Below are positions 7,393 to 32,387 of a DNA stretch of 52,985 bases, one piece after another. A program made the translations under genes and the position numbers. Position 1 is the first letter of the stretch. Each line of letters begins with the position of its first letter. A model generated the notes under the pieces. That model was not told the DNA's origin, searched no databases, and saw only the letters and a program-made list of their open reading frames with translations. Location: the NCBI GenBank assembly GCA_001799255.1, contig MGTC01000036.1, positions 10,033 through 63,017 on the forward strand, written 5' to 3'. Origin of the DNA: Deltaproteobacteria bacterium RIFOXYD12_FULL_55_16 (lineage in GTDB: Bacteria; Desulfobacterota; Desulfobulbia; Desulfobulbales; Desulfurivibrionaceae).

Positions 7393-7461
7393 GATTGAAT
7401 CTCCGTAGTGTATATAAGACGAATATACAATGGTGGGATACAATGTCAAGTTTTGAGTATG

Positions 7462-7634
7462 TCGAAGGGGACGCTGGTGCAAAACAACCTGCCCGTCGCC
7501 GGTATAAGAGTATAATGCCGACCCTCCCCACCCAATCGAAGGGGACGCTGGTGCAAAACAACCTGCCCGTCGCCGGCATAAGAGTATAATGCCGACCCTC
7601 CCCACCCAATTCAAGGATAGATGTCAAAAGAAGA
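7462..7634 (+). repeat. Family C element, two tandem copies
   Basis: Two nearly identical 74-bp units (7462-7535, 7536-7609) begin TCGAAGGGGACGCTGG and hold a small GGCAT / ATGCC hairpin. The second continues with ATTCAAGGATAGATGTC to about 7634. A third, inverted copy with the same tail lies at 29563-29661. The position upstream of tacA may put promoter signals for the toxin-antitoxin operon inside the repeat. Confidence 0.9.
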
Positions 7635-8905: not shown

Positions 8906-9382
8906 GTGCCTGAGGGGAGTGTGCAAAATCCAGTCTGCCGTTTTCGCAGTCGCTCCGAGCATCTCCTCGATGCTAAAGGCCGGCTGAATATCGCGACCAG
9001 ATTTCGTGAGGCCTTGCGCAATCAGGGGGAGGAAAGGCTTATGCTCACCCCCTGGCATAACTGCATCCGGGCCTATTCGCTGCCGGAGTGGGAAGAGCTG
9101 GAAATAGCCCTGACCGCACAAGGGCAGAAAAGCCCGGAAAAGCTCAAACTGATCCGCTACATGATCGGCGGGGCCGAGGAATGCGTGCTGGACAAGCAGG
9201 GGAGAATCCTGCTTCCTGCAAATTTGCGGGAGGATTGCCGCATCAGGAAGGAAGTCGTGGTCAGCGGCATGATCGCCTATTTTGAAATCTGGGACAAGGA
9301 AGTCTGGGAGGCTGAGAGCAAACCGACCGTCGATGATTTTCATAATTTTGAACAGGTGCTTCTGGAAACAGGGCGGTTCTGA
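8906..9382 (+). CDS. mraZ: Transcription regulator MraZ
   Basis: A 158-residue protein with two AbrB/SpoVT-like DNA-binding halves: LDAKGRLNIATRFREAL near residues 20-37 and LDKQGRILLPANLRE near 95-110. MraZ forms rings that bind direct repeats ahead of the dcw operon and represses it. The start is GTG at 8906, six bases after AAGGAG. The family is usually 140-155 residues, so a start further downstream is unlikely to be needed. It is the first gene of the division cluster, with rsmH six bases downstream. Confidence 0.95.
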   Translation: MPEGSVQNPVCRFRSRSEHLLDAKGRLNIATRFREALRNQGEERLMLTPWHNCIRAYSLPEWEELEIALTAQGQKSPEKLKLIRYMIGGAEECVLDKQGRILLPANLREDCRIRKEVVVSGMIAYFEIWDKEVWEAESKPTVDDFHNFEQVLLETGRF

Positions 9383-9388: not shown

Positions 9389-10276
9389 ATGCAGCCCGCT
9401 CATCTTCCGGTCATGCTCGAGGAAGTGGTCGCCTGTCTGGCCCCGAAAGATGGTGGTCTTTATGTTGACGGCAACCTTGGTCTTGGCGGCCATACGGAAA
9501 AAATTCTTGAGACCTGCGGCCCCACCGGTCAGGTGGTGGGCTTTGACTGGGATGCGGCGGCTCTGACCCTGGCGCAGGAACGGCTGGCCCGGTTTGCAGG
9601 CCGGGTTCATTTTGTGCATGAGAATTTCACCTCGATAAAGGAGACCCTGATGGAGCTTGGCATCGGCACAATTGACGGCCTGCTGCTCGATCTGGGTCTT
9701 TCTTCTTTGCAGCTCGACGTAAGCGGCCGGGGGTTCAGCTTTAAGGGCAGCGAGCCGCTTGACATGCGGATGGATCAGCGCCAGACCACCACGGCTGCCC
9801 AGTTGGTTAACGAAGCAACCGAGGAAGAGCTGGCGGATATTTTTTTCTTCTATGGCGAAGAGCGCCAGGCGAGAAGGATTGCCGAGGAGATAGTCGAGGC
9901 CCGGCGGAAAGAGAAGATTGTTTCCACCGCTCAGCTTGTCGCCTTGGTTGATCAGGCCATTCCCAAACGTTTTCATCCCAAGAAAATCCATGTGGCCACC
10001 AAGGTTTTTCAGGCCTTGCGCATCGCCGTTAACCGCGAACTTGACAGTCTTGAGCAGGTTCTAGCCGATGGCGCCAGCCTGCTTGCGCCCGGCGCCAGAT
10101 TTTGTGTCCTCTCCTTCCATTCCCTGGAAGATCGCCTGGTGAAGCAGGCCTTCCGGGAAAATCCCCTGCTGGAGGCAGTTACCCAGAAGCCGCTTACCCC
10201 TGGCCGCGCGGAATGTCTGCGCAACCCCAGAGCCAGAAGCGCCAAGCTGAGGGTTGCGACGCGAGGATTAAATTAG
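9389..10276 (+). CDS. rsmH: 16S rRNA (cytosine-1402-N4)-methyltransferase RsmH
   Basis: A 295-residue SAM-dependent enzyme that methylates N4 of C1402 in the decoding centre of 16S rRNA. It begins QPAHLPVMLEEVVACL, with GNLGLGGHTEKIL as SAM motif I, VVGFDWDAAAL as motif II and LLLDLGLSSLQLD. The C-terminal end has FCVLSFHSLEDRLVK and LRNPRARSAKLRV, family hallmarks. Length is normal (about 310). It is the second gene of the dcw cluster and probably translated from the mraZ transcript. Confidence 0.96.
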   Translation: MQPAHLPVMLEEVVACLAPKDGGLYVDGNLGLGGHTEKILETCGPTGQVVGFDWDAAALTLAQERLARFAGRVHFVHENFTSIKETLMELGIGTIDGLLLDLGLSSLQLDVSGRGFSFKGSEPLDMRMDQRQTTTAAQLVNEATEEELADIFFFYGEERQARRIAEEIVEARRKEKIVSTAQLVALVDQAIPKRFHPKKIHVATKVFQALRIAVNRELDSLEQVLADGASLLAPGARFCVLSFHSLEDRLVKQAFRENPLLEAVTQKPLTPGRAECLRNPRARSAKLRVATRGLN

Positions 10277-10277: not shown

Positions 10278-10622
10278 ATGCGGGATTACGCGAAAAAATA
10301 CTCCGGCACGGTCGTCAACCGGCAGCAAATCCAGGGCAAACGATCGGGTGGCGCGGAACAAGAACAGCCTTCCAGGATCATCGGGGCGGTGATGGTTGTC
10401 GCCATGCTGCTGGGGGCAGGCAGCAGCCTCTGGTTCGGCGTTGCTTTACAGGACGGGCTTGGCAGGCTTGCTACAGGCCGGCAGGAAAAAATTGAACTTG
10501 GCACAGCCAATGTGGCGCTTTTAGCAGAAAAGGAAGCGCTGCTGCAACAGAAAAGAATCGAAGCTGCGGCAGGGGGGCTGGGGCTGTTTCCGCCTTCTGA
10601 AAAGCAGTTGAGAAAACCGTAG
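10278..10622 (+). CDS. ftsL: Cell division protein FtsL-like
   Basis: A 114-residue bitopic protein. A basic cytoplasmic part of about 33 residues leads into one membrane span (IGAVMVVAMLLGAGSSLWF, residues 35-55). A short coiled-coil follows, ending in GLGLFPPSEKQLRKP, like the FtsL end motif. FtsL joins FtsB and FtsQ and passes the activation signal to FtsW-FtsI at the septum. Sequence similarity within this family is weak, so the call rests on size, topology and place between rsmH and ftsI. It starts one base after the rsmH stop. Confidence 0.8.
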   Translation: MRDYAKKYSGTVVNRQQIQGKRSGGAEQEQPSRIIGAVMVVAMLLGAGSSLWFGVALQDGLGRLATGRQEKIELGTANVALLAEKEALLQQKRIEAAAGGLGLFPPSEKQLRKP

Positions 10623-10631: not shown

Positions 10632-12662
10632 ATGAAAAAGCGGGCCATTGAGAGGAGAAGCCGACGTCCGGTCATGGTGGGCGCTGTTATTTTGCTGCTG
10701 CTGGTATTTGCGGGGGTAGTAATCAGAAATCAGTTTTTTGACGGCAACGGGCAGCTGGAGCAAGGCGACGGGCAAAAGGAAGAACAGGCCCGCGCCGTAA
10801 GAGGCGGAGGCCGAAAAAATATTTATGACCGGAACTTCATGGAGCTGGCCGTGAGTTTTCAGCGAAGTTCCCTGTACGCCAGGCCGTTGGAGCTTGATTC
10901 GCCTGAGAAAACTGCCCGTGAGGTTGCCCTGATTCTCGGAGTTGAGGAAAAAAATATTCTTTCGGCCTTGAAGGGCGAAAGAAGTTTTGCCTGGCTTGGC
11001 AGGGATCTTTCTCGCGAGAAAGCGGTAAAAATCGCGGATCTGAATCTGAAGGGGGTTTACCGCATCAATCAGGTGCAGAGATTTTACCCGGGAAACCAGC
11101 TGGGCGCCCATGTGCTTGGTTTTATCAAGGACGAACAGGGCCTGGCCGGGGTTGAATTTTATTATGACAGCGTCCTGCGGGGTGGCGGGGCGCACAACAC
11201 CAGACTGGCAGAGGCCGGAGCCAGCAGAAAGAAAGTTGAAGGAAGCGACAGCGCCAGCCTTGTTTTGACCCTTGATATTCATCTGCAGAATATCCTGGAG
11301 CAAAAGCTGAAAGGCCTTGTTGAAAGCACGGGAGCCAAGGCAGGAGTGGCTGTACTCATGACCCCGGACACCGGGGAGATCCTCGGCCTGGCCAGCCTGC
11401 CGGATTATGACCCCAACCGGTTCTGGGAATTCAGCGATGAGGCGCGCAGGAACCGGGCTATTGAGTCCACCCTTGATCTTGGCGCAATGGAGCGTCTTTT
11501 TCAGACGGCAATAGAAATGGAGAAAAGCCTTGTCCTGGGAAGCAGGGGGGCAGAAGGCGAGGCAGGGCTGCTTCCTGTTCCGGCTCCGGAAGCGATTCCG
11601 AAGACAGCCTGGAATCTGACCACGGAGGGCCGCTATGTTTCTCCCGAGGGGGTCGGTTTTGCTCAGATCGTGGCGAGACGTGACGAATTAAACGCCTTTG
11701 CAGACAAGATCGGCCTGACCGTCAAGGGCGAGGTGGATTTGCCTGAGGCCTTGTTTGTCTTGAAGGAGGAAAATGCCCCTGGCCCTCCAGACAAGCTGGC
11801 GGCCGTGATTAAGGCGGGAAATCCTCCCGGGCCGCCAAAGGCCATGCCGCCGTCCCCTGATCAGGATTCTGTCTTGAAAGCAACCCCTTTGGCGTTGCTT
11901 TCGGCATTTTGCCGACTGATCAACGGCGGCCAGGTGATGACACCTCATGTACTCCGGGCTGTTTGGCAGAATGAGCAGGTGCGGGCTGTGCCGGTTCGAC
12001 AGAGGATCGTGGAATTTGCCCTGCGGCCTGAGGTAAGCGCGGGCCTGCGCCAGGAGATGAAGAAGGTTACCGGGGCCGGGCGGGGTAATTTCATCATGGA
12101 ATCGTTGCGGGTACAAGATCTCGTCCCGGCAGGCCAGATGAAAAAGGAGGTCGCGGGCAAGGCGCAGGCGGCAAAAGAGGGCGGAGAGAAAGCGACCCCA
12201 GTCCAGCCGGGAATGGAGAGCATCCTGCTGGGAATGGCCCCGCTGGAACATCCTGAAGTCGCCCTGGTCGTCGTGCTTGATGGCGCCAGGATCGATTCGC
12301 AGGCCAATTCTCCGATCCGGATTTTTGGCGAAGAGATGCTGGCGCAGGGCGGAACCGCGCTGCGCAAAACGGCGCGCCCCCCCACGGCCCTGGATTTAGC
12401 GGTGCGGGAAATCGTCTATCACAAAAAAATGGAGCAGCTTCAAGGCAAGTCTTCTCTGCCTGCCGCCCTGGCTCAAGGGGCGCAGGAGCTTGTTATGCCG
12501 GAGGTGCTGGGGATGAGCGGCAGAAAGGCCATGCAGACCTTGCAGCCTTATGGCCTGAGATTGCAGCTCGCCGGTTCAGGGAGGGTGGCCAGCCAGTCTC
12601 CCCAGGCCGGGGCAGCCTTGAAGGGCGTGGAAAAGGGCGTGTTGCACCTGAAAACTATGTAG
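10632..12662 (+). CDS. ftsI: FtsI/PBP3-like protein with lost transpeptidase active site, PASTA domain
   Basis: A 676-residue class B penicillin-binding protein. It has one membrane span (residues 15-31), a pedestal starting RKNIYDRNFMELAVSF, a transpeptidase-fold domain (about 230-580) and a C-terminal PASTA domain (about 615-676). All three catalytic motifs are gone. SxxK is replaced by Ala-Met-Glu-Arg (residues 285-288) in the context NRAIESTLDLGAMERLF. SxN is Ser-Pro-Glu (337-339). KTG is missing near residues 497-501 (LVPAG). The surrounding fold landmarks, such as SVLKATPLALLSAF and VALVVVLD, remain and the frame is open, so this is a pseudoenzyme and not a decayed gene. It may serve as a scaffold for the divisome. 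A working FtsI would have to be coded elsewhere. Confidence 0.9.
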   Translation: MKKRAIERRSRRPVMVGAVILLLLVFAGVVIRNQFFDGNGQLEQGDGQKEEQARAVRGGGRKNIYDRNFMELAVSFQRSSLYARPLELDSPEKTAREVALILGVEEKNILSALKGERSFAWLGRDLSREKAVKIADLNLKGVYRINQVQRFYPGNQLGAHVLGFIKDEQGLAGVEFYYDSVLRGGGAHNTRLAEAGASRKKVEGSDSASLVLTLDIHLQNILEQKLKGLVESTGAKAGVAVLMTPDTGEILGLASLPDYDPNRFWEFSDEARRNRAIESTLDLGAMERLFQTAIEMEKSLVLGSRGAEGEAGLLPVPAPEAIPKTAWNLTTEGRYVSPEGVGFAQIVARRDELNAFADKIGLTVKGEVDLPEALFVLKEENAPGPPDKLAAVIKAGNPPGPPKAMPPSPDQDSVLKATPLALLSAFCRLINGGQVMTPHVLRAVWQNEQVRAVPVRQRIVEFALRPEVSAGLRQEMKKVTGAGRGNFIMESLRVQDLVPAGQMKKEVAGKAQAAKEGGEKATPVQPGMESILLGMAPLEHPEVALVVVLDGARIDSQANSPIRIFGEEMLAQGGTALRKTARPPTALDLAVREIVYHKKMEQLQGKSSLPAALAQGAQELVMPEVLGMSGRKAMQTLQPYGLRLQLAGSGRVASQSPQAGAALKGVEKGVLHLKTM

Positions 12663-12686: not shown

Positions 12687-14282
12687 ATGGGGAAAAACAA
12701 CAGCCTTGCCGCAGTATCCTTACGGAAATTGGCCGAGGAGATGGAGCTCGTGAACCTGGACAGATTACAGGATAAAACGATACGCAGCCTCACCGCCGAT
12801 TCCCGTCAGGCTGGGCCTGGGGCGTTGTTTGTCGCGATCCCTGGGCTGACCGTGGATGGCCATAACTATCTGGAGGCGGCGGTAAAAAGAGGCTGCGCCG
12901 CCGTGCTGGTCGGCAAGGGACGTTGCCGGGGATGGACGCATGCCAAGGTCGCCTGTCTGGAGACTGCCGATACGGCAAAGGCTCTGGGCCAGGCGGCGGC
13001 CGGTTTTTATGGCCATCCGGCCCGGCGGATGCTGATGCTCGGGATCACCGGCACTAATGGCAAGACCACGACCACCTATCTGCTGGAGTCGATCATCCGT
13101 CAGGCCGGGGGCAATCCCGGGGTGATCGGCACCGTGAATTATCGCTATAACACGGTGGAAATTCCCGCGCCCTTTACCACGCCTGAGCCGGTAAGCCTGC
13201 AGCGGATTCTGGCGGAAATGGCGGATAACGGCGTGACCCATGTCGTTATGGAAATCTCTTCCCATGCCCTTGCACAAAAAAGGGTGGCCGGGATCAGGTT
13301 TGATGTGGTGCTTTTTACCAATCTGAGCCGGGATCACCTGGATTTTCATGGGGACATGGGCAGCTACTTCGCGAGCAAGAAGCTGCTCTTTAGCGAGTAT
13401 CTGAAAGAAAACGGCAAGGCGGTGGTCATCTGTGATGACAGGGATGCTGGCAACCCTGACTGGGGCCGACGCCTGCTGGAAGAACTGCGGGCCGATAAGA
13501 ACCTGGGCTATACAGGGAAAAAAGGCCGAACTCTGCTGGATTGCGGCCTTGCCGGAACCACGGTGGCCGTGCGGGAGACCAGGGAGAGTCTGACCGGAAC
13601 AGTGGCCAGCCTGACAACCCCGAGCGGAGAACTGCAACTTCGTTCCGATCTGGTTGGCGACTTCAATCTGAAAAATATTCTCGGCGCGGTTGGCGTAGCG
13701 CTGGCCTTGGGGATTACCGGGTCTGAGGTTGTTGCCGGTCTGGCGCAAGCCAGGCCCGCGCCCGGAAGATTGGAAAGGGTGCCTGCCCCGGCCGGGGTCA
13801 GCGTTTTTGTGGATTTTGCCCATTCCCCGGACGCGCTGGCCAATGTGTTGCAGACCATGCGCCGTCTCACCGCTGGCCGTCTGATCGTGATTTTTGGTTG
13901 CGGCGGCGACCGCGACCGGGGGAAACGGCCTTTGATGGGCAAGGCCGCTGGTGCGCTGGCCGAGGTGGTGGTGCTTACCTCCGATAATCCCCGGAGTGAA
14001 AGCCCTGCCGCCATTCTCCGGGAGATCGAGGCGGGGATTCAGGAAACCTCCCTGCCACGGCTGCGCCTTGAGGCCATTTTGAATCAGGAAGCAGGGCGGG
14101 GCTATGATCTCGTTCTTTCCCGCCGGGAGGCGATCCGGGAAACCCTCCGCCACGCCAGACCAGGTGATGTGGTGCTGTTGTGCGGCAAGGGACACGAGAC
14201 CTGTCAGATAACCCCGGAAGGGAGTTTCTTCTTCGATGACCGGCTTGAGGCCGCAGCGCAGGCAACGGTAATTAAATGGTAA
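12687..14282 (+). CDS. murE: UDP-MurNAc-tripeptide synthetase MurE (meso-DAP type)
   Basis: A 531-residue Mur ligase that adds the third amino acid to UDP-MurNAc-dipeptide. It shows the ATP loop LGITGTNGKTTTTYLLE (about residues 110-126), the middle-domain HVVMEISSHALAQKRV, and the C-terminal IVIFGCGGDRDRGKRPLM and VVLLCGKGHE. The sequence TSDNPRSE holds the DNPR motif of enzymes that use meso-diaminopimelate, which predicts a Gram-negative type wall. The gene runs into murF with a seven-base overlap. The ATG at 12687 has no strong ribosome site, but the domain begins soon after. Confidence 0.96.
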   Translation: MGKNNSLAAVSLRKLAEEMELVNLDRLQDKTIRSLTADSRQAGPGALFVAIPGLTVDGHNYLEAAVKRGCAAVLVGKGRCRGWTHAKVACLETADTAKALGQAAAGFYGHPARRMLMLGITGTNGKTTTTYLLESIIRQAGGNPGVIGTVNYRYNTVEIPAPFTTPEPVSLQRILAEMADNGVTHVVMEISSHALAQKRVAGIRFDVVLFTNLSRDHLDFHGDMGSYFASKKLLFSEYLKENGKAVVICDDRDAGNPDWGRRLLEELRADKNLGYTGKKGRTLLDCGLAGTTVAVRETRESLTGTVASLTTPSGELQLRSDLVGDFNLKNILGAVGVALALGITGSEVVAGLAQARPAPGRLERVPAPAGVSVFVDFAHSPDALANVLQTMRRLTAGRLIVIFGCGGDRDRGKRPLMGKAAGALAEVVVLTSDNPRSESPAAILREIEAGIQETSLPRLRLEAILNQEAGRGYDLVLSRREAIRETLRHARPGDVVLLCGKGHETCQITPEGSFFFDDRLEAAAQATVIKW

Positions 14283-15760
14283 GGCCGATCACGATGGGTG
14301 CTGGCGACAGGAAAAATTTGAAAACGGAGCAGAAATCCGGCTCCTGTGCCAGGCCTAATCCCGACTGGACGCTGGCCCAGGTTCTCCAGGCCACGGGGGG
14401 GAAATTGCTTTCCACCGGGGCCGAAACGGGGTTCCGACGGGTCTGCACGGACAGCCGGGCCATCGAGCCGGGGGATCTGTTCGTGGCTCTGCGCGGGGAA
14501 AACTTTGATGGCCATGCCTATCTCACCCAAGCCGTGGCAAAAGGGGCCGTCGGCCTGGTGGTAGAGACGAGGCCGGAAAAGATGTTGCCGGTGCCGGTGG
14601 TGCTGGTGGCGGATACCCTCCGCGCCCTCGGGGATTTGGCGGCCTGCCGGAGATCGTTGCTCCCGGGGTTGCAGGTGCTGGCGATCACCGGCAGCTGCGG
14701 CAAGACCACGGTCAAGGAGATGCTGGCCGCGATTCTGGACATAAAATACAAGGTGCTGAAAACCAAAGGTAATTTTAACAATCTCGTCGGCCTGCCGCTT
14801 TCCTTGCTGCCGGTTGAGCGCGCCCACGATTTCGCGGTGCTGGAAATGGGCATGAATCAGCCCGGCGAGATTGCCCGGCTTACCGAGATCGCCAACCCGG
14901 ATATCGCCTGCATCACCAATGTTCAGGATGCCCATCTGGCCGGACTAGGCGATATCTCCGGGGTCGCCAGGGCCAAGGGCGAGCTTTTTGCCGGGCTCAA
15001 GGCCAGTGGCAGGCTGGTGGTCAATGTCGATGATAAAAGGGTGCTGGCTATCGCCCGGCAGTGCGGGCAGAAAAAAATAACCTTTGGCCGCCACCCGCAG
15101 GCGGAGGTTCGCGGCCTTCGTCTGCGTGGCCTGGGCGAGCGCGGCATGGCTTTCACCCTGCGGTTCGGCGGCAATGAGGCCCGGGTGAGAATCAGCGCTC
15201 TTGGGGCGCATAACGTGCAGAACGCCCTGGCTGCGGCAGGCATGGCCTGGGCGGCCAGGGTGAGGTTCGGGGATATCGTGGCCGGGCTGGAAAGCTTTGT
15301 CCCCTTTGAAAAACGGCTTCAGGTGCAGAGGCTCAGCGGCGGGGTCAGGCTGATCAACGACGCCTATAACGCCAATCCCTCTTCGATGCAGGCCGCACTT
15401 GAGACCCTGCGCCAGATGGAGCAGGGCCGGCAAAAAGTGGTTATCCTGGGCGACATGCTTGAGCTTGGCCAAGAGAGTGTTGCTGCCCATCAGGCGCTTG
15501 GTGAGCAGGTGGCCAGACTGGGCTTTGCGGCCCTGCTGGCGGTCGGGGATTTTGCCGGGGTTCTGGTTGCCGCCGCCTGGCAGGCCGGGATGAGCAGGGA
15601 GAAGGCCCTGGCTTTCAGCAAAAAAGAACAGATCAGCACCTGGCTGCGCGAGGGCATCGCCACAGGCGCCCTGCAACCAGGGGCTTGGGTGCTGCTCAAA
15701 GGCTCGCGCGGGATGCGGATGGAAACCATTACTAACGATCTGCTTGAGAAGCAAGGATAA
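14276..15760 (+). CDS. murF: UDP-MurNAc-tripeptide:D-Ala-D-Ala ligase MurF
   Basis: A 494-residue Mur ligase that joins D-Ala-D-Ala to the tripeptide and finishes the cytoplasmic peptide stem. It has the ATP loop AITGSCGKTTVKEMLAAIL, the FAVLEMGMNQPGEIARLTEI motif, and INDAYNANPSSMQAAL followed by VVILGDMLELG near the C-terminus. The ATG at 14276 overlaps the end of murE; an ATG at 14294 is also possible. The D-Ala-D-Ala ligase that makes its substrate (ddl) is not in this cluster. Confidence 0.96.
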   Translation: MVRPITMGAGDRKNLKTEQKSGSCARPNPDWTLAQVLQATGGKLLSTGAETGFRRVCTDSRAIEPGDLFVALRGENFDGHAYLTQAVAKGAVGLVVETRPEKMLPVPVVLVADTLRALGDLAACRRSLLPGLQVLAITGSCGKTTVKEMLAAILDIKYKVLKTKGNFNNLVGLPLSLLPVERAHDFAVLEMGMNQPGEIARLTEIANPDIACITNVQDAHLAGLGDISGVARAKGELFAGLKASGRLVVNVDDKRVLAIARQCGQKKITFGRHPQAEVRGLRLRGLGERGMAFTLRFGGNEARVRISALGAHNVQNALAAAGMAWAARVRFGDIVAGLESFVPFEKRLQVQRLSGGVRLINDAYNANPSSMQAALETLRQMEQGRQKVVILGDMLELGQESVAAHQALGEQVARLGFAALLAVGDFAGVLVAAAWQAGMSREKALAFSKKEQISTWLREGIATGALQPGAWVLLKGSRGMRMETITNDLLEKQG

Positions 15761-15769: not shown

Positions 15770-16849
15770 ATGCTCTATCATCTTCTCTATCCGCTGCACA
15801 ATTATTTCAGCGCGCTGAATGTTTTTCGCTATATCACCTTTCGCACCATCGGGGCCACGCTGACCGCCTTTCTAGTTCTGCTGCTGGTCGGCGACAGGTT
15901 TATCCGAATGATGCAGGAAAACCAGATCGGCCAGGTAGTGCGTGATGACGGCCCGGCCAGCCATTTCAGCAAGCGGGGGGTTCCCACCATGGGAGGCCTG
16001 CTCATCCTTTTTGCGGTAACGGTGACCACCCTGCTCTGGGTCGATCTGACAAATTCCTTTGTCTGGATCATTCTCGGGGTGACCCTCTGGTTTGGCGCCA
16101 TCGGCGCTTATGATGACTACCGCAAGATAAAAAAGCAGAACAGCAAGGGCCTGAGCGCCAGGGGCAAGATCTTCTGGCAGCTTCTCGGCGCTTTGGCAGC
16201 AGGATTGCTTATTTATAACAACCCGAATTTTGACGGACATCTGAGCTTTCCGTTTTTGAAGAATATCCAGCCAGACCTTGGCGTCTATTATGTGATTTTC
16301 GCCATTCTGGTGGTGGTCGGCGCTTCCAATGCCGTCAATCTCACCGACGGCCTTGACGGCCTGGCCACCGGCCCCACGGTGGTGACGAGCAGTGTCTATC
16401 TGCTTTTCTCCTACCTGGCCGGACATGCCGGGCTGGCGGCCTATCTGCAGATCCCCTATGTGCCGGGGGCCGGGGAGGTTGCCGTTTTCTGCGGCGCCCT
16501 GGTGGGGGCCAGCCTTGGTTTCCTCTGGTTCAATGCCTATCCAGCCCAGATCTTCATGGGCGATGTGGGCTCTCTGGCCATGGGCGCCGCCCTTGGCCAG
16601 GTGGCGATCATCATCAAGCAGGAGATGCTGCTGGCTATTGTCGGGGGGATTTTTGTCATGGAGGCGCTTTCGGTCATCCTGCAGGTGGGGTTTTTCAAGA
16701 TGACCGGCGGAAAAAGGATTTTCCTCATGGCCCCGTTTCATCACCATTTTGAAAAGAAGGGCTGGACAGAGCCAAAGGTGGTGATTCGCTTCTGGATCAT
16801 CTCCATTGTTCTGGGCTTAAGCGCCCTGGCGACCTTGAAACTGCGGTAA
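15770..16849 (+). CDS. mraY: Phospho-MurNAc-pentapeptide translocase MraY
   Basis: A 359-residue integral membrane enzyme with about ten spans. It transfers phospho-MurNAc-pentapeptide to undecaprenyl phosphate and makes lipid I. Hallmarks are GVPTMGGLLILFA, the Asp pair in GAYDDYRKIKKQNSKGLSAR, AVNLTDGLDGLATGP, WFNAYPAQIFMGDVGSLAMG and APFHHHFEKKGWTEPKVV. Length equals the family norm (360). Its TAA stop is the start of the family A element that separates it from murD. Confidence 0.97.
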   Translation: MLYHLLYPLHNYFSALNVFRYITFRTIGATLTAFLVLLLVGDRFIRMMQENQIGQVVRDDGPASHFSKRGVPTMGGLLILFAVTVTTLLWVDLTNSFVWIILGVTLWFGAIGAYDDYRKIKKQNSKGLSARGKIFWQLLGALAAGLLIYNNPNFDGHLSFPFLKNIQPDLGVYYVIFAILVVVGASNAVNLTDGLDGLATGPTVVTSSVYLLFSYLAGHAGLAAYLQIPYVPGAGEVAVFCGALVGASLGFLWFNAYPAQIFMGDVGSLAMGAALGQVAIIIKQEMLLAIVGGIFVMEALSVILQVGFFKMTGGKRIFLMAPFHHHFEKKGWTEPKVVIRFWIISIVLGLSALATLKLR

Positions 16850-17141: not shown

Positions 17142-18563
17142 ATGAGCAGAAATCTCAAGGAAATACTTCAGCCTGGCGCCCATGTCGTAGTGGTGGGCCT
17201 TGGCAAGTCTGGTGTTTCCGCAGTGCGCTTCCTGCTCAAGCTTGGCGTGAAAATATCGGTTTCAGAGGGTGGGCGCGCGGAGAGTCTTGAGGGAGATCTG
17301 GGCTGCTGGCTGGCGGAGAAAGGCGTTTTTGTAGAAACTGGCGGGCATACCGCTGAGCTTTTAACCTCGGCGGATTGTCTTCTGGTAAGTCCGGGTGTGC
17401 CACTGGGGATAGCGCCTCTTGTGGCGGCCCGGCAAAAAGGCATCCCGGTGATAGGCGAGCTGGCCCTGGCAAAAGATTTCCTTAAAGCCCCGGTAGTGGC
17501 GGTGACCGGCACCAACGGCAAAAGCACGGTGACCACCCTGATCGGCGATCTGCTTCGCGGCAGCGGCAGGAAGGCCTTTGTGGGCGGGAATATTGGGATC
17601 CCTCTGGCTGAGTACCTGGCCGGGCCGCAAGATTGTGAGGTGGTGGTTCTTGAGGTGAGCAGTTTTCAGCTGGACAGCGCCGGGGAGTTTCGGCCCCAGG
17701 TGGGGGTGCTGCTCAATATCACCCCGGATCATCTGGATCGCTATGCCTCTTATGAGGCCTATGTCGAGGCAAAGATATCGCTTTTTAAAAACCAGCAGCC
17801 AGGCGACGTGGCGGTGCTTAACGGTGACGATCCTGCCATTGCCGGGTGGCTGGCTGGAGGGGCGGAGCGGAAAAGCCCCTGGCCGGTGCGGGCTGAAATC
17901 CGCCAGTACAGCTCCTGCGGCAGGAGTGGGGTAACGGCATCTGTCAGTGGAACTAGGGTTCGCCTTGCCACACAAGATGCGCCGGGGAAAATGGCGGAGG
18001 AATACGAACTGGCTGGAACCCCGCTGGCCCAGGCGCCAAACAGCGAAAATGCCATGGCGGCGATTCTGGCGGTGCGGGCCATGGGGTGCAGCCCGGCAGA
18101 CATCCGGAAAAGTCTGGCCGCTTTCACCCCGTTGCCGCACAGGCTGGCCCTGGTGGCTGAGATTGATGGCATCTCCTATTATGATGATTCCAAAGCCACC
18201 AATGTCGGGGCCGTCTATTCGGCGCTGGGTGGCATGCAGCAGCCGGTGGTGCTTATTGCCGGGGGCCGGGATAAGGGCGGCGGCTACGAGATGCTGCTGC
18301 CCCTGGTGCGGGAAAAGGTTCGGGGTATGGTTCTGATTGGCGAGGCCAAAGAGGAAATGGCTAAGGCCTTTGCTGGCCTCACTCGGATAGCCTTTGCCGG
18401 GGAAATGCCCGAAGCGGTGCAACTGGCCGGAACCATGGCGCAGAAGGGCGACGCGGTGCTGTTGTCCCCGGCCTGCGCCAGTTTTGACATGTTTAGCAGT
18501 TACAGTCATCGGGGAGAGGTGTTCACCCAGGCGGTTAGCAGGATAAAACAACAAGAAGGTTGA
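17142..18563 (+). CDS. murD: UDP-MurNAc-alanine:D-glutamate ligase MurD
   Basis: A 473-residue Mur ligase adding D-Glu to UDP-MurNAc-L-Ala. The N-terminal Rossmann-type domain has VVVGLGKSGVSAVRFLL, the ATP loop is VAVTGTNGKSTVTTLIGDLL, and further motifs are LEVSSFQLD, NITPDHLDRY, YYDDSKATNVGAVY and LIAGGRDKGGGY near the C-terminus. It follows the A2 repeat after about 80 bases. In most clusters ftsW comes directly after murD; here it does not. Confidence 0.96.
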   Translation: MSRNLKEILQPGAHVVVVGLGKSGVSAVRFLLKLGVKISVSEGGRAESLEGDLGCWLAEKGVFVETGGHTAELLTSADCLLVSPGVPLGIAPLVAARQKGIPVIGELALAKDFLKAPVVAVTGTNGKSTVTTLIGDLLRGSGRKAFVGGNIGIPLAEYLAGPQDCEVVVLEVSSFQLDSAGEFRPQVGVLLNITPDHLDRYASYEAYVEAKISLFKNQQPGDVAVLNGDDPAIAGWLAGGAERKSPWPVRAEIRQYSSCGRSGVTASVSGTRVRLATQDAPGKMAEEYELAGTPLAQAPNSENAMAAILAVRAMGCSPADIRKSLAAFTPLPHRLALVAEIDGISYYDDSKATNVGAVYSALGGMQQPVVLIAGGRDKGGGYEMLLPLVREKVRGMVLIGEAKEEMAKAFAGLTRIAFAGEMPEAVQLAGTMAQKGDAVLLSPACASFDMFSSYSHRGEVFTQAVSRIKQQEG

Positions 18564-18647
18564 CAGTACCCAGGAACAAAAAAGAAAGGCCCGGATTGGC
18601 GCCTGAGAAGGCAAGCCTTGAGACGGGAAAAAGGCGGGGACAGGGAA

Positions 18648-18836
18648 ATGCAAACAGTGTGCTGCGTGTGCCGGAAAACAAAAACTCAGACTGGCTGGAA
18701 ACAAAGACAGGCCAGCAAGGAAGGCCAGTTTTCCCACGGATACTGCCCGGATTGTTTTCATCGCACCATGGAACTGGCGCAAGGCTGGCTGCTGGCAAGA
18801 ACTGCCGGGAACCAGGGCCTGTCTCTCAGTCGCTAA
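18648..18836 (+). CDS. Small CxxC/CxxC zinc-ribbon-like protein in the usual place of ftsW
   Basis: A 62-residue protein with Cys5-x2-Cys8 (plus Cys6) and Cys33-x2-Cys36 in FSHGYCPDCFHRTMEL. The pattern of a first CxxC, a Trp and then SHGxCPxC resembles the small zinc-binding tails often found next to PAS or receiver domains of signalling proteins. No function is known for the free domain. The ATG at 18648 follows a GGGGACAGGGAA purine stretch; an in-frame ATG at 18618 would add ten residues. It lies alone between murD and murG on the same strand, where FtsW is coded in most bacteria. It has no membrane span and cannot replace FtsW. Confidence 0.6.
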   Translation: MQTVCCVCRKTKTQTGWKQRQASKEGQFSHGYCPDCFHRTMELAQGWLLARTAGNQGLSLSR

Positions 18837-18852
18837 AGATCAGGGGCTGCTC

Positions 18853-19929
18853 ATGCGGATGATCGTAACCGGCGGCGGAACAGGCGGGCATCTTTTCCCC
18901 GGTATCGCCGTGGCCGAAGAGATACAGCGGCGGTTTCCCCAGGGCAGGATCCTCTTTGTCAGTACGGATCGTACCATTGACAATAAGATGCTGGCTGCGC
19001 GCTCCTTCGAGAAGAAGGCCATTACCTGCCTGCCCTTGAAAGGAAAGTCTGTTTGGGGGACGCTGAAAAGTGTGAGCCAGCTCCCCCTCAGCCTGTGGCA
19101 GGCGTTGCGGATTGTTCGCGCCTTCAGGCCGCAGCTGGTTTTGGGGGTAGGCGGCTATGTGACCGGGCCGGTGGTGCTGGCGGCAAGGTTGATGGGGGTG
19201 AAGACCTGCATTCATGAGCAGAATTCAGTTCCGGGAATGGCGAACAGGATGTTGGGGAAAATTGTTGACCAGATATATGTTTCCATCCCTGGCTCCGAGG
19301 ATTTTTTCCCCAGGGGCAAGGCCGTGCTGACTGGCAATCCGGTGCGGGCGGAGCTTCTTCTTACGGCTGGCAGGCAGAAGGGCCAGGCGGCAAGCAAGAC
19401 TGTTTTGGTGCTGGGGGGCAGTCAGGGGGCGCACCGGGTTAATACCCTGCTGGTGGAGGCCTTTACTCCGGCCCTGTCTGCCGACCTGATTCAGGTCAGG
19501 CACCAGACAGGGAGCAAGGATGAAGCGTGGGTGCGCAAGGCTTACGCTGAGGCAGGGGTTGCGGCTCAGGTCTCTTCCTTTATCAGCGATATGGCGGCGG
19601 CTTACCGGGAAGCTGATCTGGTGGTTTCCCGGGCCGGGGCAACCACCCTGGCGGAGTTGGCGGTGCTTGGCCTTCCGGCTATTCTCATCCCCTTTCCGTA
19701 TGCGGCGGATGACCATCAGACGACCAATGCGGCTTTTCTGGCGCGAGGCGGCGCGGCCCTGATGTTTCAGGAGCAGGATCTTGATGGCGCGAAGCTCCGG
19801 GGCGAGATCCTTGGGCTTTTAAACGATACCCCCCGTTTGCGGAACATGGCGGCCCGGATGAAAGAATACGCCAGGCTTGAGGCGACCACCGCCATTGTGG
19901 AAAAGAGTCTGGAACTGCTGGCAGCCTGA
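18853..19929 (+). CDS. murG: UDP-GlcNAc transferase MurG (lipid II synthase)
   Basis: A 358-residue GT28 glycosyltransferase at the inner face of the membrane that adds GlcNAc to lipid I. It begins MRMIVTGGGTGGHLFPGIAV, with the two glycine loops, then GVGGYVTGPVVLAA, IHEQNSVPGMANRML, VLVLGGSQGAHRVN, and the UDP-sugar motif VVSRAGATTLAELAVLGLP with IPFPYAADDHQTTNA. Length is normal (355). It is followed 12 bases later by murC. Confidence 0.97.
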   Translation: MRMIVTGGGTGGHLFPGIAVAEEIQRRFPQGRILFVSTDRTIDNKMLAARSFEKKAITCLPLKGKSVWGTLKSVSQLPLSLWQALRIVRAFRPQLVLGVGGYVTGPVVLAARLMGVKTCIHEQNSVPGMANRMLGKIVDQIYVSIPGSEDFFPRGKAVLTGNPVRAELLLTAGRQKGQAASKTVLVLGGSQGAHRVNTLLVEAFTPALSADLIQVRHQTGSKDEAWVRKAYAEAGVAAQVSSFISDMAAAYREADLVVSRAGATTLAELAVLGLPAILIPFPYAADDHQTTNAAFLARGGAALMFQEQDLDGAKLRGEILGLLNDTPRLRNMAARMKEYARLEATTAIVEKSLELLAA

Positions 19930-19941: not shown

Positions 19942-21333
19942 ATGTACAAAAAAACACAACATATCCATTTCGTGGGCATCGGCGGCATCGGCATGAGCGG
20001 CATAGCCGAGCTGCTTTTAAACCTGGGCTACACCGTGAGCGGCTCTGACCTGCGGGAGACCCAGATCACCAGGCGCCTGGCCGATTTGGGCGGCAGAGTT
20101 CACACCGGGCATCAGGGCCAGTGGATTGCCGGGGCCGATGTGGTGGTGACTTCCTCGGCGGTGCGGGAAGATAATCCGGAAGTGGAGGCGGCCCGTGCTG
20201 CGCATATCCCGGTGATCCCCAGGGCGGAGATGCTGGCTGAGCTCATGCGCCTCAAGAAGTACGGCATTGCCGTGGCTGGCAGTCACGGAAAAACCACCAC
20301 CACCTCCATGGTTGCCTGGCTGATGGCCGAGGCGGAGCTTGATCCCACCGTGGTGATCGGCGGCAAGGTGAACAGCCTGGGCACCAACGCCAAACTGGGT
20401 GAGGGTGAATTCCTGGTTGCTGAGGCGGACGAGTCAGACGGCTCTTTTTTGAAATTGTCGCCGGTTCTCGAAATCGTCACCAATATCGATCTGGAACATC
20501 TGGATCATTACCGGGATATCGAGGAGATCAAGGCCGCTTTCCTGGAATTCATCGAAAAGCTCCCCTTTTATGGGGCGGCAGTTGTATGTCTGGATGATCC
20601 GCATATTGCCTCGATCCTGCCCCGAATCAAAAAAAGGGTTATCACCTACGGCCTGACCAGTCAGGCGGATGTTCACGCCAGGGCCGTGGCGGCCCAGGGA
20701 CTGGTCTCGATTTTTGAGGTCTGCCGGGACAATGAGGTTCTGGGGAAAATAACCCTTAATATTCCTGGGCAGCATAATGTCTATAACGCCCTGGCCGCGA
20801 TCACTGTGGCCCTGGAGCTGGATATCCCCTTTGCCGTCATCCGCGCAGCCCTGAAAACATTCAGCGGCGTCCAGCGACGCCTGCAGATCAAAGGAGAGGT
20901 TGCAGGGATTATGGTTATTGATGATTATGGCCATCATCCCACCGAGATCAGGGCGACCCTGGCGGCAGTCCGTTCTGCCTGGCCGAGGAAAAGGCTGATC
21001 GTCATGTTTCAGCCCCATCGCTACACGCGGACGGCGGGCTTGTTCATGGAATTCAGCACTGCTTTTCACGAGGCGGATATTCTGCTGCTTACCGAGATCT
21101 ACGCGGCGAGTGAGACCCCCATCGAGGGGGTAAGCGGGGCCGCACTTTTGCAGGAGATCAAGCGGCACGGCCAGAAAAACGCCCATTTTGTCGCGGAGGC
21201 TGGCTTTCTGGCGCAAACGGCGCTGGGCATGGCGCAGCCGGACGATATCGTTCTGACCCTGGGCGCTGGGAATATCTACCGGGTGGGCGAGGAACTCTTG
21301 CAGAAATTGGCGCAGGGACTTGCGGTCAGTTAA
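19942..21333 (+). CDS. murC: UDP-MurNAc:L-alanine ligase MurC
   Basis: A 463-residue Mur ligase that adds the first amino acid of the peptide stem. It has the N-terminal [19 protein letters not shown], the ATP loop [34 protein letters not shown], and [16 protein letters not shown] with [10 protein letters not shown] in the C-terminal domain. Length and motifs are complete. murB starts 11 bases after the stop, or overlaps it if a TTG at 21320 is used. Confidence 0.97.
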
Positions 21334-21343
21334 GGTTGTTTGG

Positions 21344-22264
21344 ATGAAAAAAAGGGTGGAAAACTGGCCGGAGCAACTGCGTGATCTCTGGCCCGGCGAG
21401 ATCGAATGGAACAGCGGCATGGCCAGCTGGTGTACCCTGCGGGTAGGCGGCCCGGCCAGGGCCATCGCCACCCCGGCAAGCCGGGCGGAGTTACAGAGTC
21501 TTCTTGCCCTGCTGGCAAGACTGGGTGTCTGCTGGCGGGTTATTGGCCGGGGCAGCAACCTGCTGGTTTCCGACGCGGGGTATGAAGGGGTCATTATCAT
21601 GCTGGGCCGGAAGTTTTCGGCCATCGAAAAGCTGGCCAGGGAAAAGGCAGGAGAGGTCAAGGTGCAGGTTGAGGCCGGATGCAGCCTGATGAAGCTGGTT
21701 AACTGGTGCGCCGGGCAAGGGTTGGCGGGGTTGGAATTTGCCGCAGGCATCCCCGGTTCGGTGGGCGGGGCAGTGGTCATGAATGCCGGGGCCTGGGGTA
21801 AGGAGATGAGCGAGGCGCTGTCTGCGGTGACGTTTTCAGGCAGGTCGGGAGAATTGCTGGAAAAGAAAAGAGACGAGCTGGCCTTTTCGTATCGGCATCT
21901 GGAAACAGAGGGCCTGATTGTAACGGGCGCGGAGTTTTTGCTCCAGGATGGCGAGCAGCAGGCTATCGAGGAAAAAATCTCCCGTTTTCTGTGTACGCGG
22001 AAAGAAAAGCAGCCACAAGGGGTTGCCAGCGCCGGGTCTTTTTTTAAAAACCCGCCGGGCCTGCCCGCCGGAAAGCTCATTCAGGATGCGGGCTTAAAGG
22101 GACTTCGCCTTGGCGGGGCTCAGGTTTCCGAGGTGCATGCCAATTTTTTCGTGAATACCGGATCGGCCACGGCCCAGGATTTTCTTGATCTGATGCGGCT
22201 GGTGCAGGAAAAGGTTGGCGAGCGGTTCGGGGTATGGCTGGAGCCGGAAGTTCATCTTCTGTAA
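21344..22264 (+). CDS. murB: UDP-N-acetylenolpyruvoylglucosamine reductase MurB
   Basis: A 306-residue FAD enzyme that reduces the enolpyruvyl group to make UDP-MurNAc. It shows WCTLRVGGPARAIATP, VIGRGSNLLVSDAGYEG, GIPGSVGGAVVMNAGAWG, the SAGSFFKNPPG motif with its catalytic Ser, and LEPEVHLL at the end with the catalytic Glu. FSYRHLE, with a short loop, fits the type II forms better than the E. coli form. The ATG at 21344 has AAGG eight bases upstream; a TTG at 21320 would overlap murC. The TAA stop is the first triplet of repeat A3. Confidence 0.95.
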   Translation: MKKRVENWPEQLRDLWPGEIEWNSGMASWCTLRVGGPARAIATPASRAELQSLLALLARLGVCWRVIGRGSNLLVSDAGYEGVIIMLGRKFSAIEKLAREKAGEVKVQVEAGCSLMKLVNWCAGQGLAGLEFAAGIPGSVGGAVVMNAGAWGKEMSEALSAVTFSGRSGELLEKKRDELAFSYRHLETEGLIVTGAEFLLQDGEQQAIEEKISRFLCTRKEKQPQGVASAGSFFKNPPGLPAGKLIQDAGLKGLRLGGAQVSEVHANFFVNTGSATAQDFLDLMRLVQEKVGERFGVWLEPEVHLL

Positions 22265-22401: not shown

Positions 22402-23229
22402 TTGCAAAAAGGAAAGCCCATCCAGCAGCGCTACGGGAGCGGCAGAAAAAGCCAGAACCTGAATCTGCAGAAGAAGCTGGTCATTATCGGAGCCGGATTT
22501 CTGCTGCTGGTGGCAAGCCTTGCCGGGGTTGGCTTTATTGTGTACAAGGCCCTGGGCCACTCAGATTTTTTCCAGATAACCTCTACCAGTATTCAGGGCT
22601 GCCGCCGGACGACCAAAAACCTTATTCTTGAAATGAGCGGGGTTGATGTGTACAGCAATCTGCTGGCTCTTGATCCCGGAAGGGTCAGGGCCGGAATCGC
22701 GGCCAACGAGTGGGTCGAATCGGTGGAGATTGTCAAGGACTGGCCGAACCGCTTGACCATTGTGGTCAAGGAACGTCTGCCGGTGGCCATTGCCAGCCTC
22801 GATGACGGGCTGTTCTATCTTGACCAGAACGGGGTGGCCTTTACCCGGGTGCTGCCGCCGGAGGATATGGATTATCCCCTTATTACCGGGCTGAAAAGGG
22901 AAGACTGGCCGCGCACCCTCAAGGATTCGCAACTGGGCGAGGCCTTGCAGTTTCTTAAATACGCAGGCCAGGGAAGTTCTATCCTGCCAAAGCAGAATAT
23001 CTCGGAACTCCATCTGGACGGGGCTGAAAATATCACCCTGTATCTGGTGGATCGGCCTTTTCCCATCCATCTGGGGTCTGGCCGGGTCGGGGGCAAATAC
23101 AACTGGCTGACCAAGGTGCTGTACAAGTTATACAAGAGCAAGGAATTTGAAAAAACAGCCTATGTCAGAATGGATTATGGGCGCAATCAGGTGCTGATAG
23201 GTTTTGACGAGATGGTGCAGGACAGATGA
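22402..23229 (+). CDS. ftsQ: Cell division protein FtsQ
   Basis: A 275-residue bitopic protein: a basic cytoplasmic tail, one span (LVIIGAGFLLLVASLAGVGF, about residues 30-50), a POTRA domain (FFQITSTSIQGCRRTTKNLI to PNRLTIVVKERLPVA) and the FtsQ beta domain with WLTKVLYKLYKSKEFEKTAY near the end. FtsQ links FtsA/FtsZ-dependent early parts to FtsL-FtsB. The start is TTG at 22402; no better start codon precedes the basic tail. The next gene, ftsA, could begin at an ATG overlapping its stop. Confidence 0.92.
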   Translation: MQKGKPIQQRYGSGRKSQNLNLQKKLVIIGAGFLLLVASLAGVGFIVYKALGHSDFFQITSTSIQGCRRTTKNLILEMSGVDVYSNLLALDPGRVRAGIAANEWVESVEIVKDWPNRLTIVVKERLPVAIASLDDGLFYLDQNGVAFTRVLPPEDMDYPLITGLKREDWPRTLKDSQLGEALQFLKYAGQGSSILPKQNISELHLDGAENITLYLVDRPFPIHLGSGRVGGKYNWLTKVLYKLYKSKEFEKTAYVRMDYGRNQVLIGFDEMVQDR

Positions 23230-23282
23230 CCGTTTCGGACGGACGGCGCCGTCTTCGCAGCAAAGAAGCAAAGGGTGAGCAA

Positions 23283-24515
23283 ATGGCACAAGAAGAACGC
23301 GGCGACCTGATTGTCGGGCTGGATATCGGCACCACCAAGATCTGCGTGGTGGTGGGCGAGGTGCATGATGGCCGGATTGACATCATCGGCACAGGCAGGC
23401 ATCCTTCGGTGGGGCTGCGCCGGGGGGTGGTGGTCAATATCGAGAGTACCGTCCACTCGATCCGGCAGGCGGTGGAAGAAGCGGAACGCATGGCCGGATG
23501 TGAGATCAATGCCGTTTATGTGGGCATTGCTGGCAGCCATATCAAGAGCTTCAACAGCCACGGCCTGGTCGCCATCAAACACAACGAGATCAAGCAGGAC
23601 GACATTGAGCGGGTAGTGGATGCGGCCAGGGCTGTGCCCATTCCAATGGATCAGGAGGTTATCCATGTGCTGCCGCAGGAGTTCATGGTGGACGGTCAGG
23701 CCGACATTCAGGATCCGCTCGGCATGGCCGGCGTCCGCCTTGAGGCTGATGTGCATATTGTAACCGGCTCGGCAACCGCAGTGCATAACATCATTAAATG
23801 CTGCAACCGGGCTGGCCTTCAGGTGACAGATGTAGTGCTTGAACCTTTGGCCTCGGCCTGCGCGGTGCTGACCAGGGAAGAGATGGAACTGGGGGTCGGC
23901 CTGCTGGATATCGGCGGCGGCACTGCCGATCTGGCAATTTTTGCAGATGGCACCATCAAGCACACCTTTGTTCTTGGTCTGGGCGGCCAGAACCTCACCA
24001 ACGACCTGGCCATCGGGCTGCGCACCCCGCAGAAGGAGGCGGAAAGACTCAAGGAAGAGTTTGGCAGCGCTCTGGCCTCTCTCATTGACAAGGATCAGAT
24101 CATAGAGGTTCCCAGCGTAGGGGGGAGAAAGAACAGAAGGCTTACCCGCCGGGTCATGGGAGAGATCCTTGAGCCCCGGGTTGAGGAGATGTTCACCCTT
24201 ATCAATCAGGAGTTGCTGGATTCCAGGTACAAGGAACTGGTCACCGCCGGCCTGGTGCTGACCGGAGGCTCATGCCTTCTCGACAATATGGAGGAATTGG
24301 CGGAACAGATCTTTGATCTGCCGGTTCGCACCGGTCGCCCGGAAAATATCGGCGGGATGGTGGAGGTGATTGGCACACCGCAGTGGGCAACCGGGGTTGG
24401 TCTGGTTATCTACGGCATGAAGAATGGGCCAGGGGAGAGATTCAAGCGGCCCAAGGGGGGAGTGATAGGGAGATTCACCGGTCGGATTAAGGACTGGTTT
24501 AAAGGAATAATATAA
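23283..24515 (+). CDS. ftsA: Cell division protein FtsA
   Basis: A 410-residue actin-like ATPase that ties FtsZ to the membrane. It has LIVGLDIGTTKICVVVGEV (phosphate 1), the 1C domain around residues 80-160, GLLDIGGGTADLAIF (phosphate 2) and VLTGGSCLLDNMEELAE (adenosine motif). The end, GRFTGRIKDWFKGII, is the amphipathic membrane-targeting helix. The ATG at 23283 has AAGGG seven bases upstream and gives the family length (420 in E. coli). An ATG at 23226 overlapping the ftsQ stop is the alternative and would add 19 residues. Confidence 0.95.
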   Translation: MAQEERGDLIVGLDIGTTKICVVVGEVHDGRIDIIGTGRHPSVGLRRGVVVNIESTVHSIRQAVEEAERMAGCEINAVYVGIAGSHIKSFNSHGLVAIKHNEIKQDDIERVVDAARAVPIPMDQEVIHVLPQEFMVDGQADIQDPLGMAGVRLEADVHIVTGSATAVHNIIKCCNRAGLQVTDVVLEPLASACAVLTREEMELGVGLLDIGGGTADLAIFADGTIKHTFVLGLGGQNLTNDLAIGLRTPQKEAERLKEEFGSALASLIDKDQIIEVPSVGGRKNRRLTRRVMGEILEPRVEEMFTLINQELLDSRYKELVTAGLVLTGGSCLLDNMEELAEQIFDLPVRTGRPENIGGMVEVIGTPQWATGVGLVIYGMKNGPGERFKRPKGGVIGRFTGRIKDWFKGII

Positions 24516-24583
24516 TAGACGCTCATCAAGCGCCAGGCGATGTCGGGAGAAGGGCAAGGATCTTGAACAGGGGAGAGCAGGAT

Positions 24584-25756
24584 ATGACTTTTAAATTTGC
24601 GGAAACAGAGTCTCGGGCAAAGATCAGGGTGTTTGGGGTTGGCGGCGGCGGGGGGAATGCAGTCAATACCATGGTAGACAGCAAGATCCTCGGGGTGGAG
24701 TTCATTGCCGGGAACACGGACAGTCATGCCCTGGAGCATTCCCGGGCTGATATCCGCCTGCAGCTGGGCAAGTCTCTGGCCAAGGGGCTGGGCGCTGGCG
24801 CCAACCCTGAGGTGGGCAGGGCCGCAGCCGAGGAGTCCATCGATGACATCCGCAAGGTGCTGAAGGACTCGGACATGGTCTTTGTCACCGCCGGGTTGGG
24901 CGGAGGAACTGGCACCGGGGCCGCGCCGGTTGTGGCCCGGATTGCCAAGGAGCTGGGAGCGCTGACCGTGGGTGTGGTGACCAAGCCTTTCGCCTTTGAG
25001 GGCCGCCCCAGAAGCAAGAACGCCGATTCGGGCTGGAAGCAGCTCAAGGAGCATGTAGACGCCATTATTACCATCCCCAACGACCGCTTGCTCTCCATGA
25101 CGCAAAAGGGAACCCGTTTCATCGACGGAATGAAGATGGCAGATGATGTTCTGGTGCAGGCAGTGAAAGGCATCACCGACCTGATCAACCTTCCCGGCTA
25201 TATCAATCCCGACTTCGCCGATGTTAAGACCATCATGACCGAGATGGGCCCGGCCCTTATGGGTTCAGGCTACGGGGTAGGCGAGAACCGGGCCGTGGAA
25301 GCGGTGAACATGGCGATCAACAGCCCGCTTCTGCAGGATATCAGCATCGCTGGCGCCAAGGGGGTTCTGGTAAATATCTCCTCCAGCAGAGATAGCTTGA
25401 GGATGCCAGAAGTTAGCGATGTAACTACAAAAATTTATCAGGAAGTGCATGAAGACGCCAACATTATCTTGGGCGTCATCTTTGATGAGAACCTGGGCGA
25501 TGAATTGCAGGTGACGGTTATTGCCACTGGCATCCGTGAGACAATGGACGAAGTGGAAGAGTTTACCGGCAGGATTCCGGTCATACGTAAAACCCATGAA
25601 CCCGTTACGCCGCCGGTGCAATTAAGAAAGGTGGAACAGGGCATGGGCCGCGGCCGCGCTGTGGCCAACGGCATAACGAGAACCTTCAGCGATTACAATA
25701 TGCGCAACGAGCAGAAATACGATCGGCCAACCTTTCTGCGCAGGAATGAAAGTTGA
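24584..25756 (+). CDS. ftsZ: Cell division protein FtsZ
   Basis: A 390-residue tubulin-like GTPase that forms the division ring. It has VFGVGGGGGNAVNTMV, the tubulin signature GLGGGTGTGAAPVVARIAKE and the T7 loop region PGYINPDFADVKTIM. A short linker leads to the conserved tail DRPTFLRRN, which binds FtsA. The ATG at 24584 follows GGGGAGAGCAGGAT; a TTG at 24563 is possible but less likely. It is the last dcw gene. The sequence is intact, so the Z ring is probably normal although the FtsI beside it is not. Confidence 0.98.
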   Translation: MTFKFAETESRAKIRVFGVGGGGGNAVNTMVDSKILGVEFIAGNTDSHALEHSRADIRLQLGKSLAKGLGAGANPEVGRAAAEESIDDIRKVLKDSDMVFVTAGLGGGTGTGAAPVVARIAKELGALTVGVVTKPFAFEGRPRSKNADSGWKQLKEHVDAIITIPNDRLLSMTQKGTRFIDGMKMADDVLVQAVKGITDLINLPGYINPDFADVKTIMTEMGPALMGSGYGVGENRAVEAVNMAINSPLLQDISIAGAKGVLVNISSSRDSLRMPEVSDVTTKIYQEVHEDANIILGVIFDENLGDELQVTVIATGIRETMDEVEEFTGRIPVIRKTHEPVTPPVQLRKVEQGMGRGRAVANGITRTFSDYNMRNEQKYDRPTFLRRNES

Positions 25757-32280: not shown

Positions 32281-32387
32281 TTAGGAGCCGTTACAAAATA
32301 ATTTAGACAATTCCGCTCATCCCTTTACGGCTCCTTATGCCGTTTTGGCCACACAAAATGACCAGGTTATTTTGCAACAACGGCTTA
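32281..32387 (-). repeat. Family B element between the M23 peptidase gene and mutL
   Basis: Full-length single copy. The hairpin AGGAGCCGT / ACGGCTCCT and the part TATGCCGTTTT through AACAACGGCTTA align along the whole length with the in-gene units at 2911-3216. Its last triplet, read on the minus strand, is the TAA stop of the upstream M23 peptidase gene. Confidence 0.9.

Follow-up and report, generated by a model that had tools for sequence, protein, structure and literature searches.

The ftsI gene of the dcw cluster in the window, by which we mean the whole 52,985-nucleotide stretch of DNA analyzed here (from Deltaproteobacteria bacterium RIFOXYD12_FULL_55_16), encodes a strongly conserved protein that, judging by its sequence, is catalytically dead. 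We call this protein pseudo-FtsI. The loss of its motifs is fixed across the order Desulfobulbales and is not peculiar to the window genome, and the order has lost FtsW as well. The general view has been that septal wall synthesis universally falls to FtsW–FtsI. The gene and its parts are the following:

10632..12662, plus strand: pseudo-FtsI, class B PBP predicted to be dead, 676 aa (ORF, Pfam, model and alignment)
10665..10739, plus strand: membrane anchor helix, residues 12–36 (DSSP of the model; hydrophobic segment)
10812..11231, plus strand: pedestal or PBP_dimer region, residues 61–200 (dN/dS 0.053)
11484..11495, plus strand: SxxK site, residues 285–288, reading AMER (alignment)
11640..11648, plus strand: SxN site, residues 337–339, reading SPE (alignment)
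12159..12167, plus strand: KTG site, residues 510–512, reading KAQ (alignment; low-confidence model loop 498–521)
12486..12659, plus strand: PASTA domain, residues 619–676 (dN/dS 0.096)

The reading frame is uninterrupted over 676 codons, as the preliminary description had stated, and the gene is an FtsI orthologue by descent, occupying the dcw slot between ftsL and murE. The anchor helix, the PBP dimerization (pedestal) domain and the transpeptidase fold are all present. Pfam places PBP_dimer at residues 61–184 and PASTA at 621–664, and the match to the Transpeptidase family is weak, with its best stretch at 415–556 (49.6 bits). Together with the structural model, these domains agree with the FtsI-like layout of anchor, pedestal, transpeptidase fold and PASTA domain that had been described. 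The motif columns were set by alignment with 19 FtsI proteins with intact motifs from the same phylum. SxxK was found replaced by AMER and SxN by SPE, at exactly the positions given in the preliminary description. The loss of KTG that it reported also held, but not its location at 497–501, since the KTG columns lie ten-odd residues further on and read KAQ. With all three motifs replaced and no cognate FtsW, pseudo-FtsI is predicted not to be a DD-transpeptidase; the missing catalytic residues, the purifying selection and the retained fold mark it as a pseudoenzyme.

A homologue was found in 55 of the 58 relatives searched, and upon alignment none of the 55 had the motifs. The full alignment comprised 93 sequences from the order: 55 from as many genomes in 15 families, and 38 from named records, the genomes of the two sets partly overlapping. 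Not one of the 93 had Ser and Lys at the ends of the SxxK site or KT or KS at the KTG site, compared with 19/19 of the intact controls. Ser337 of the SxN site was kept in many members (SPE in 36/93, SLE in 7/93). A sequencing error, frameshift or local misalignment is ruled out by the same loss in 93 orthologues. A profile of pseudo-FtsI matched 148 of 149 order genomes that were ≥90% complete and ≤5% contaminated, the motifs being read in the 93 aligned sequences. Across the 15 families, the orthologues were about 610–790 aa long, except for fragments at contig edges, and those sampled had no internal stops. The group was identified as Desulfobulbales from record titles (Desulfurivibrio sp. 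AMeS2, Desulfocapsa, Desulfobulbaceae, Desulfobulbales) and the NCBI lineage; cable bacteria are counted in it through the literature placement of Electrothrix in Desulfobulbaceae.

Pseudo-FtsI had a median dN/dS of 0.18 across 14 genomes from the genus, and the neighboring proteins gave 0.135 (MurE), 0.161 (MurG) and 0.190 (FtsQ). By region, the values were 0.053 for the pedestal, 0.096 for PASTA and 0.304 for the middle of the transpeptidase domain. The gene is under purifying selection, concentrated in the pedestal and PASTA, and shows no decay. Mean identity between families was 40.7% in the pedestal of pseudo-FtsI vs. 40.1% in the active FtsI set, 45.8% vs. 34.4% in PASTA, and 11.1% vs. 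57.5% in the KTG loop; since the comparison is of an order with a phylum, of unequal depth, the evidence lies in the shape of these profiles and not in their level. Sixteen diverse members shared invariant residues in the pedestal and PASTA, and also W327, E490 and S491. The preliminary description had argued for a retained role rather than decay and proposed dN/dS as a check. The outcome was in its favor: selection is purifying, the pedestal matches active FtsI in conservation, PASTA exceeds it, and neutral decay is not borne out.

The structure prediction that had also been proposed yielded an AlphaFold2 model (pLDDT 78.5, pTM 0.72) in which the FtsI fold is kept, with low confidence in the KTG loop region (498–521) and in an insert at 373–412. 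The top structural match was C. difficile SpoVD (7rcz; Z 37.5 and rmsd 4.0 over 419 residues; Foldseek 2e-32). P. aeruginosa PBP3 also matched, as did the FtsI chain of FtsWIQBL (8bh1).

The dcw cluster of the window runs mraZ-rsmH-ftsL-ftsI-murE-murF-mraY-murD-murG-murC-murB-ftsQ-ftsA-ftsZ, and its sole missing member is ftsW. Apart from pseudo-FtsI, it consists of:

8906..9382, plus strand: mraZ
9389..10276, plus strand: rsmH (mraW)
10278..10622, plus strand: ftsL-like gene, 114 aa (by position and size only)
12687..14282, plus strand: murE
14276..15760, plus strand: murF, Mur ligase (domains and gene order)
15770..16849, plus strand: mraY
17142..18563, plus strand: murD
18564..18852, plus strand: murD–murG gap of 289 bp, the expected place of ftsW, with no SEDS gene
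18853..19929, plus strand: murG
19942..21333, plus strand: murC
21320..22264, plus strand: murB
22402..23229, plus strand: ftsQ, with POTRA_1 (1.6e-14) and FtsQ_DivIB_C
23226..24515, plus strand: ftsA
24563..25756, plus strand: ftsZ

The ftsL-like protein had no Pfam or NCBIfam match; it has a hydrophobic segment followed by a coiled-coil-like stretch. DivIC/FtsB was present in 56 of 58 genomes. FtsQ, FtsB, FtsA and FtsZ are retained, and FtsL by position. Outside the cluster, the window carries an M23 peptidase at 32385–33824 on the minus strand, which comes closest to the Pgp6 peptidoglycan metallopeptidase family but, at 254 bits, falls short of its cut-off (600), and a match to a TacA1-like antitoxin at 7120–7614, also on the minus strand.

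Besides the empty murD–murG gap, a search of the window genome for SEDS genes returned rodA only. With a score of 421, this single SEDS protein clears the RodA cut-off (336.7), and with 299.9 it misses that of FtsW (337.5); its gene sits inside mreB-mreC-mreD-mrdA-rodA. Exactly one SEDS protein (PF01098) was found in 153 of 161 order genomes, a set made up of the window genome and those of ≥90% completeness; two is the usual number elsewhere in the phylum. Two or three matches occurred in five of the 161, and were accounted for by a split rodA (G036) or by genomes with 5–8% contamination (G065, G099, G105, G169), so that a hidden second SEDS gene was rejected. In G036, a single-contig genome, rodA lies in two frames (C1:137697–138757). 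No SEDS protein was found in three genomes (G076, G085 and G158, all ≥90% complete).

The PBP2 adjoining rodA in the window genome passed its cut-off (703 vs. 455) and has intact motifs (GSTFK, SCD and KTGT). In this genome, which is 85% complete, transpeptidase domains were found only in pseudo-FtsI, PBP2 and a PBP1A-type class A PBP, and no class B PBP with intact motifs was found besides PBP2. The second class B PBP that the preliminary description suggested searching for thus exists, yet it is only the elongasome PBP2. In relatives, too, the strong full-domain class B matches turned out to be PBP2 beside rodA, so the presence of a second active FtsI elsewhere was rejected. PBP2–RodA is the only SEDS–class B pair. 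The window genome also encodes two short GT51 proteins whose size fits monofunctional glycosyltransferases. Nearly all genomes sampled had a class A PBP of the PBP1A type. Most Desulfobulbales families have a class A PBP of ≈1100 aa whose transpeptidase region carries a long insert, and the window's genus has a different one of 950 aa; both are candidate septal synthases. Class A PBP loci were located at:

L267, 809–4135, minus strand
L270, 3414–6722, plus strand
L271, 2729–6001, plus strand
L272, 2–3226, minus strand
L268, 1362–4211, plus strand

In the phylum at large, FtsW and a catalytic FtsI occurred together: a catalytic FtsI was present at every one of the 23 dcw loci that have ftsW and at no locus that lacks it. 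In families outside the order with one SEDS protein that keep PBP2 and have no ftsW in the dcw cluster, the slot before murE held a motif-less relative of FtsI, with lengths of 643 aa (f26), 526–569 aa (f58, f64, f70, f81, f85) and 412–457 aa (f36, f69), down to a pedestal-only form of 334–340 aa in f35 and one of 248–335 aa with only TM segment and PASTA in f32 and f57. The remnants keep different parts, so no one domain is essential to every FtsW-less lineage, which speaks against the explanation favored below. The family f72 (L281), suspected of having no KTG, proved to have intact motifs (SIIK, SSN and KTS). The reciprocal single-SEDS case was seen in f27, f31 and f40 (L256–L259), which keep FtsW and a catalytic FtsI in the dcw cluster; no second SEDS protein or second class B dimerization domain was found in them. 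In a tree of concatenated dcw proteins, f43 (L293), with intact FtsW and FtsI, nested within the loss region together with f69 and f35 (SH-aLRT 98–100), and f32/f57 were placed elsewhere. A single loss for all FtsW-less families is therefore not supported. The FtsW/FtsI changes number roughly three to five, a rough figure because the tree search ended before the bootstraps finished, and FtsW may have been lost repeatedly, or lost and then regained.

Very probably, FtsW, the septal polymerase, disappeared in the ancestors of Desulfobulbales and the transpeptidase site of FtsI degenerated along with it, but the FtsI body stayed on as a non-catalytic divisome subunit. The pedestal would still dock on FtsL within FtsQLB, as the FtsWIQBL structure, in which FtsL touches the FtsI pedestal (PMC7614612), suggests, and the TM segment and PASTA might hold or regulate the present makers of septal peptidoglycan. 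Held by FtsQLB in this way, pseudo-FtsI could act as scaffold or regulator of another synthase and, as the preliminary description suggested, might scaffold FtsL–FtsQ. The preliminary description had likewise proposed a non-catalytic divisome PBP, with cross-linking done by another PBP, and the selection, the fold, the conservation of pedestal and PASTA and the retention of FtsQ and FtsB all support that core; it had missed the spread through the order, the loss of FtsW and the shorter remnants in other FtsW-less families. Because FtsW is lost as well as the FtsI motifs, both glycan polymerization and cross-linking need replacing, and the division wall of Desulfobulbales must come from other enzymes. 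Both candidate synthases, class A PBPs and RodA–PBP2, are present in nearly all genomes. By analogy with C. difficile, we put the chances at about even that the septal synthase is formed by class A PBPs, the PBP1A type above all. They are our first choice because the PBP1A type occurs nearly everywhere, because E. coli FtsBLQ inhibits PBP1b polymerization in vitro (PMC6325244), and because of the precedent of C. difficile, which divides using the class A PBP1 with the help of a class B PBP that need not be catalytic (PMC10693644, PMC12539705).

Alternatively, the elongasome may lend RodA–PBP2 to the septum: the Z ring would recruit the pair via pseudo-FtsI and FtsQLB, it would make both septal and lateral wall, and class A PBPs would only carry out repair. 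We regard this as a real possibility, if somewhat short of an even chance, and both kinds of enzyme might also act. The pair is found in nearly every genome, with intact motifs in that of the window, and GT51 proteins are few in some FtsW-less genomes (two each in G022, G027 and G054). However, this would require FtsQLB and pseudo-FtsI to work with a non-cognate pair, and knock-down in C. difficile assigned RodA–PBP2 to elongation and PBP1 to division (PMC10693644). It is improbable that pseudo-FtsI works outside the divisome, as a PASTA-based wall sensor or regulator. PASTA is the domain best conserved between families, and the shortest forms (f32, f57) consist of TM segment and PASTA, but within the genus the strongest purifying selection falls on the pedestal, the FtsL-binding part of known divisomes, and the gene stays between ftsL and murE. 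That the gene is a relic in decay, preserved solely by its place between essential operon genes, is very unlikely and, as stated, refuted by dN/dS and conservation: the slot gene has shrunk to about 250–340 aa in other FtsW-less lineages, so erosion does happen over long times, but here it is full length across 15 families, free of internal stops, with dN/dS of 0.05–0.10 in two domains and invariant residues in both. Least credible of all is a catalytic enzyme whose nucleophile has moved or is unconventional, an idea for which Ser337 and the invariant W327, E490 and S491 might be cited, since there is no conserved Ser–Lys pair at SxxK and the KTG loop (11% identical) and the mid-domain insert are modeled with low confidence.

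On the reading that we prefer, in which pseudo-FtsI is a non-catalytic partner of FtsQLB that directs class A PBPs, the divisome would belong to a class in which the SEDS–class B septal synthase was dropped in several lineages of one phylum, and FtsZ/FtsA/FtsQLB division proceeds without a division-specific SEDS polymerase or transpeptidase; for this broader proposal, the case for and against seems to us finely balanced. It would concern a Gram-negative order of many genera, with sulfate reducers and sulfur disproportionators as well as the cable bacteria that the literature places there, with neither activity and with FtsZ, FtsA, FtsQ and FtsB kept. Desulfobulbales would represent a case in which the structural role of FtsI is naturally separated from its catalytic one, and the series from 676 to about 250 aa shows which parts of FtsI may be dispensed with after FtsW loss. 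We predict that division in this order is insensitive to FtsI-directed beta-lactams.

The absence of ftsW has been noted before in a few species: in two cable bacteria and two Desulfobulbus, where ftsN and zipA are listed as absent too (PMC7873302), and in dcw clusters of Thermodesulfobacteria (PMC8871954). The first paper, following the E. coli model, attributes septal peptidoglycan to the activity of FtsI and counts FtsI among the recruited proteins. The available portions of the two papers mention neither a dead site nor co-loss of FtsW and FtsI. In the open-access literature covered by the search, we found no report of a dead FtsI, its order-wide spread or its link with FtsW loss; the dead FtsI and the co-loss appear to be new.

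Pseudo-FtsI resembles FtsI/PBP3 of E. coli and P. aeruginosa in its dcw slot between ftsL and murE and in its anchor–pedestal–transpeptidase fold (Foldseek about 1e-30, Z about 35), but differs from the FtsI of an FtsWI synthase in having none of the three motifs, no FtsW and a conserved C-terminal PASTA domain. Its best match in both structure and sequence, C. difficile SpoVD, is an FtsI with PASTA, but unlike pseudo-FtsI it is an active, ampicillin-binding enzyme and a SEDS partner. B. subtilis division is supported by catalytically inactive PBP2B (S309A), a division class B PBP that likewise has a structural role apart from catalysis (PMC5656894); that variant, however, is engineered and its activity is covered by PBP3, whereas pseudo-FtsI is natural and without FtsW. 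A further parallel is the C. difficile divisome of class A PBP1 and a class B PBP3 acting non-catalytically, reported in 2023 to have no canonical FtsW–FtsI pair (PMC10693644). C. difficile has no FtsA (PMC10693644) and the SxxK of its PBP3 is intact, whereas Desulfobulbales keep FtsA, FtsQ and FtsB, and their class B PBP is, as predicted here, naturally dead across the whole order.
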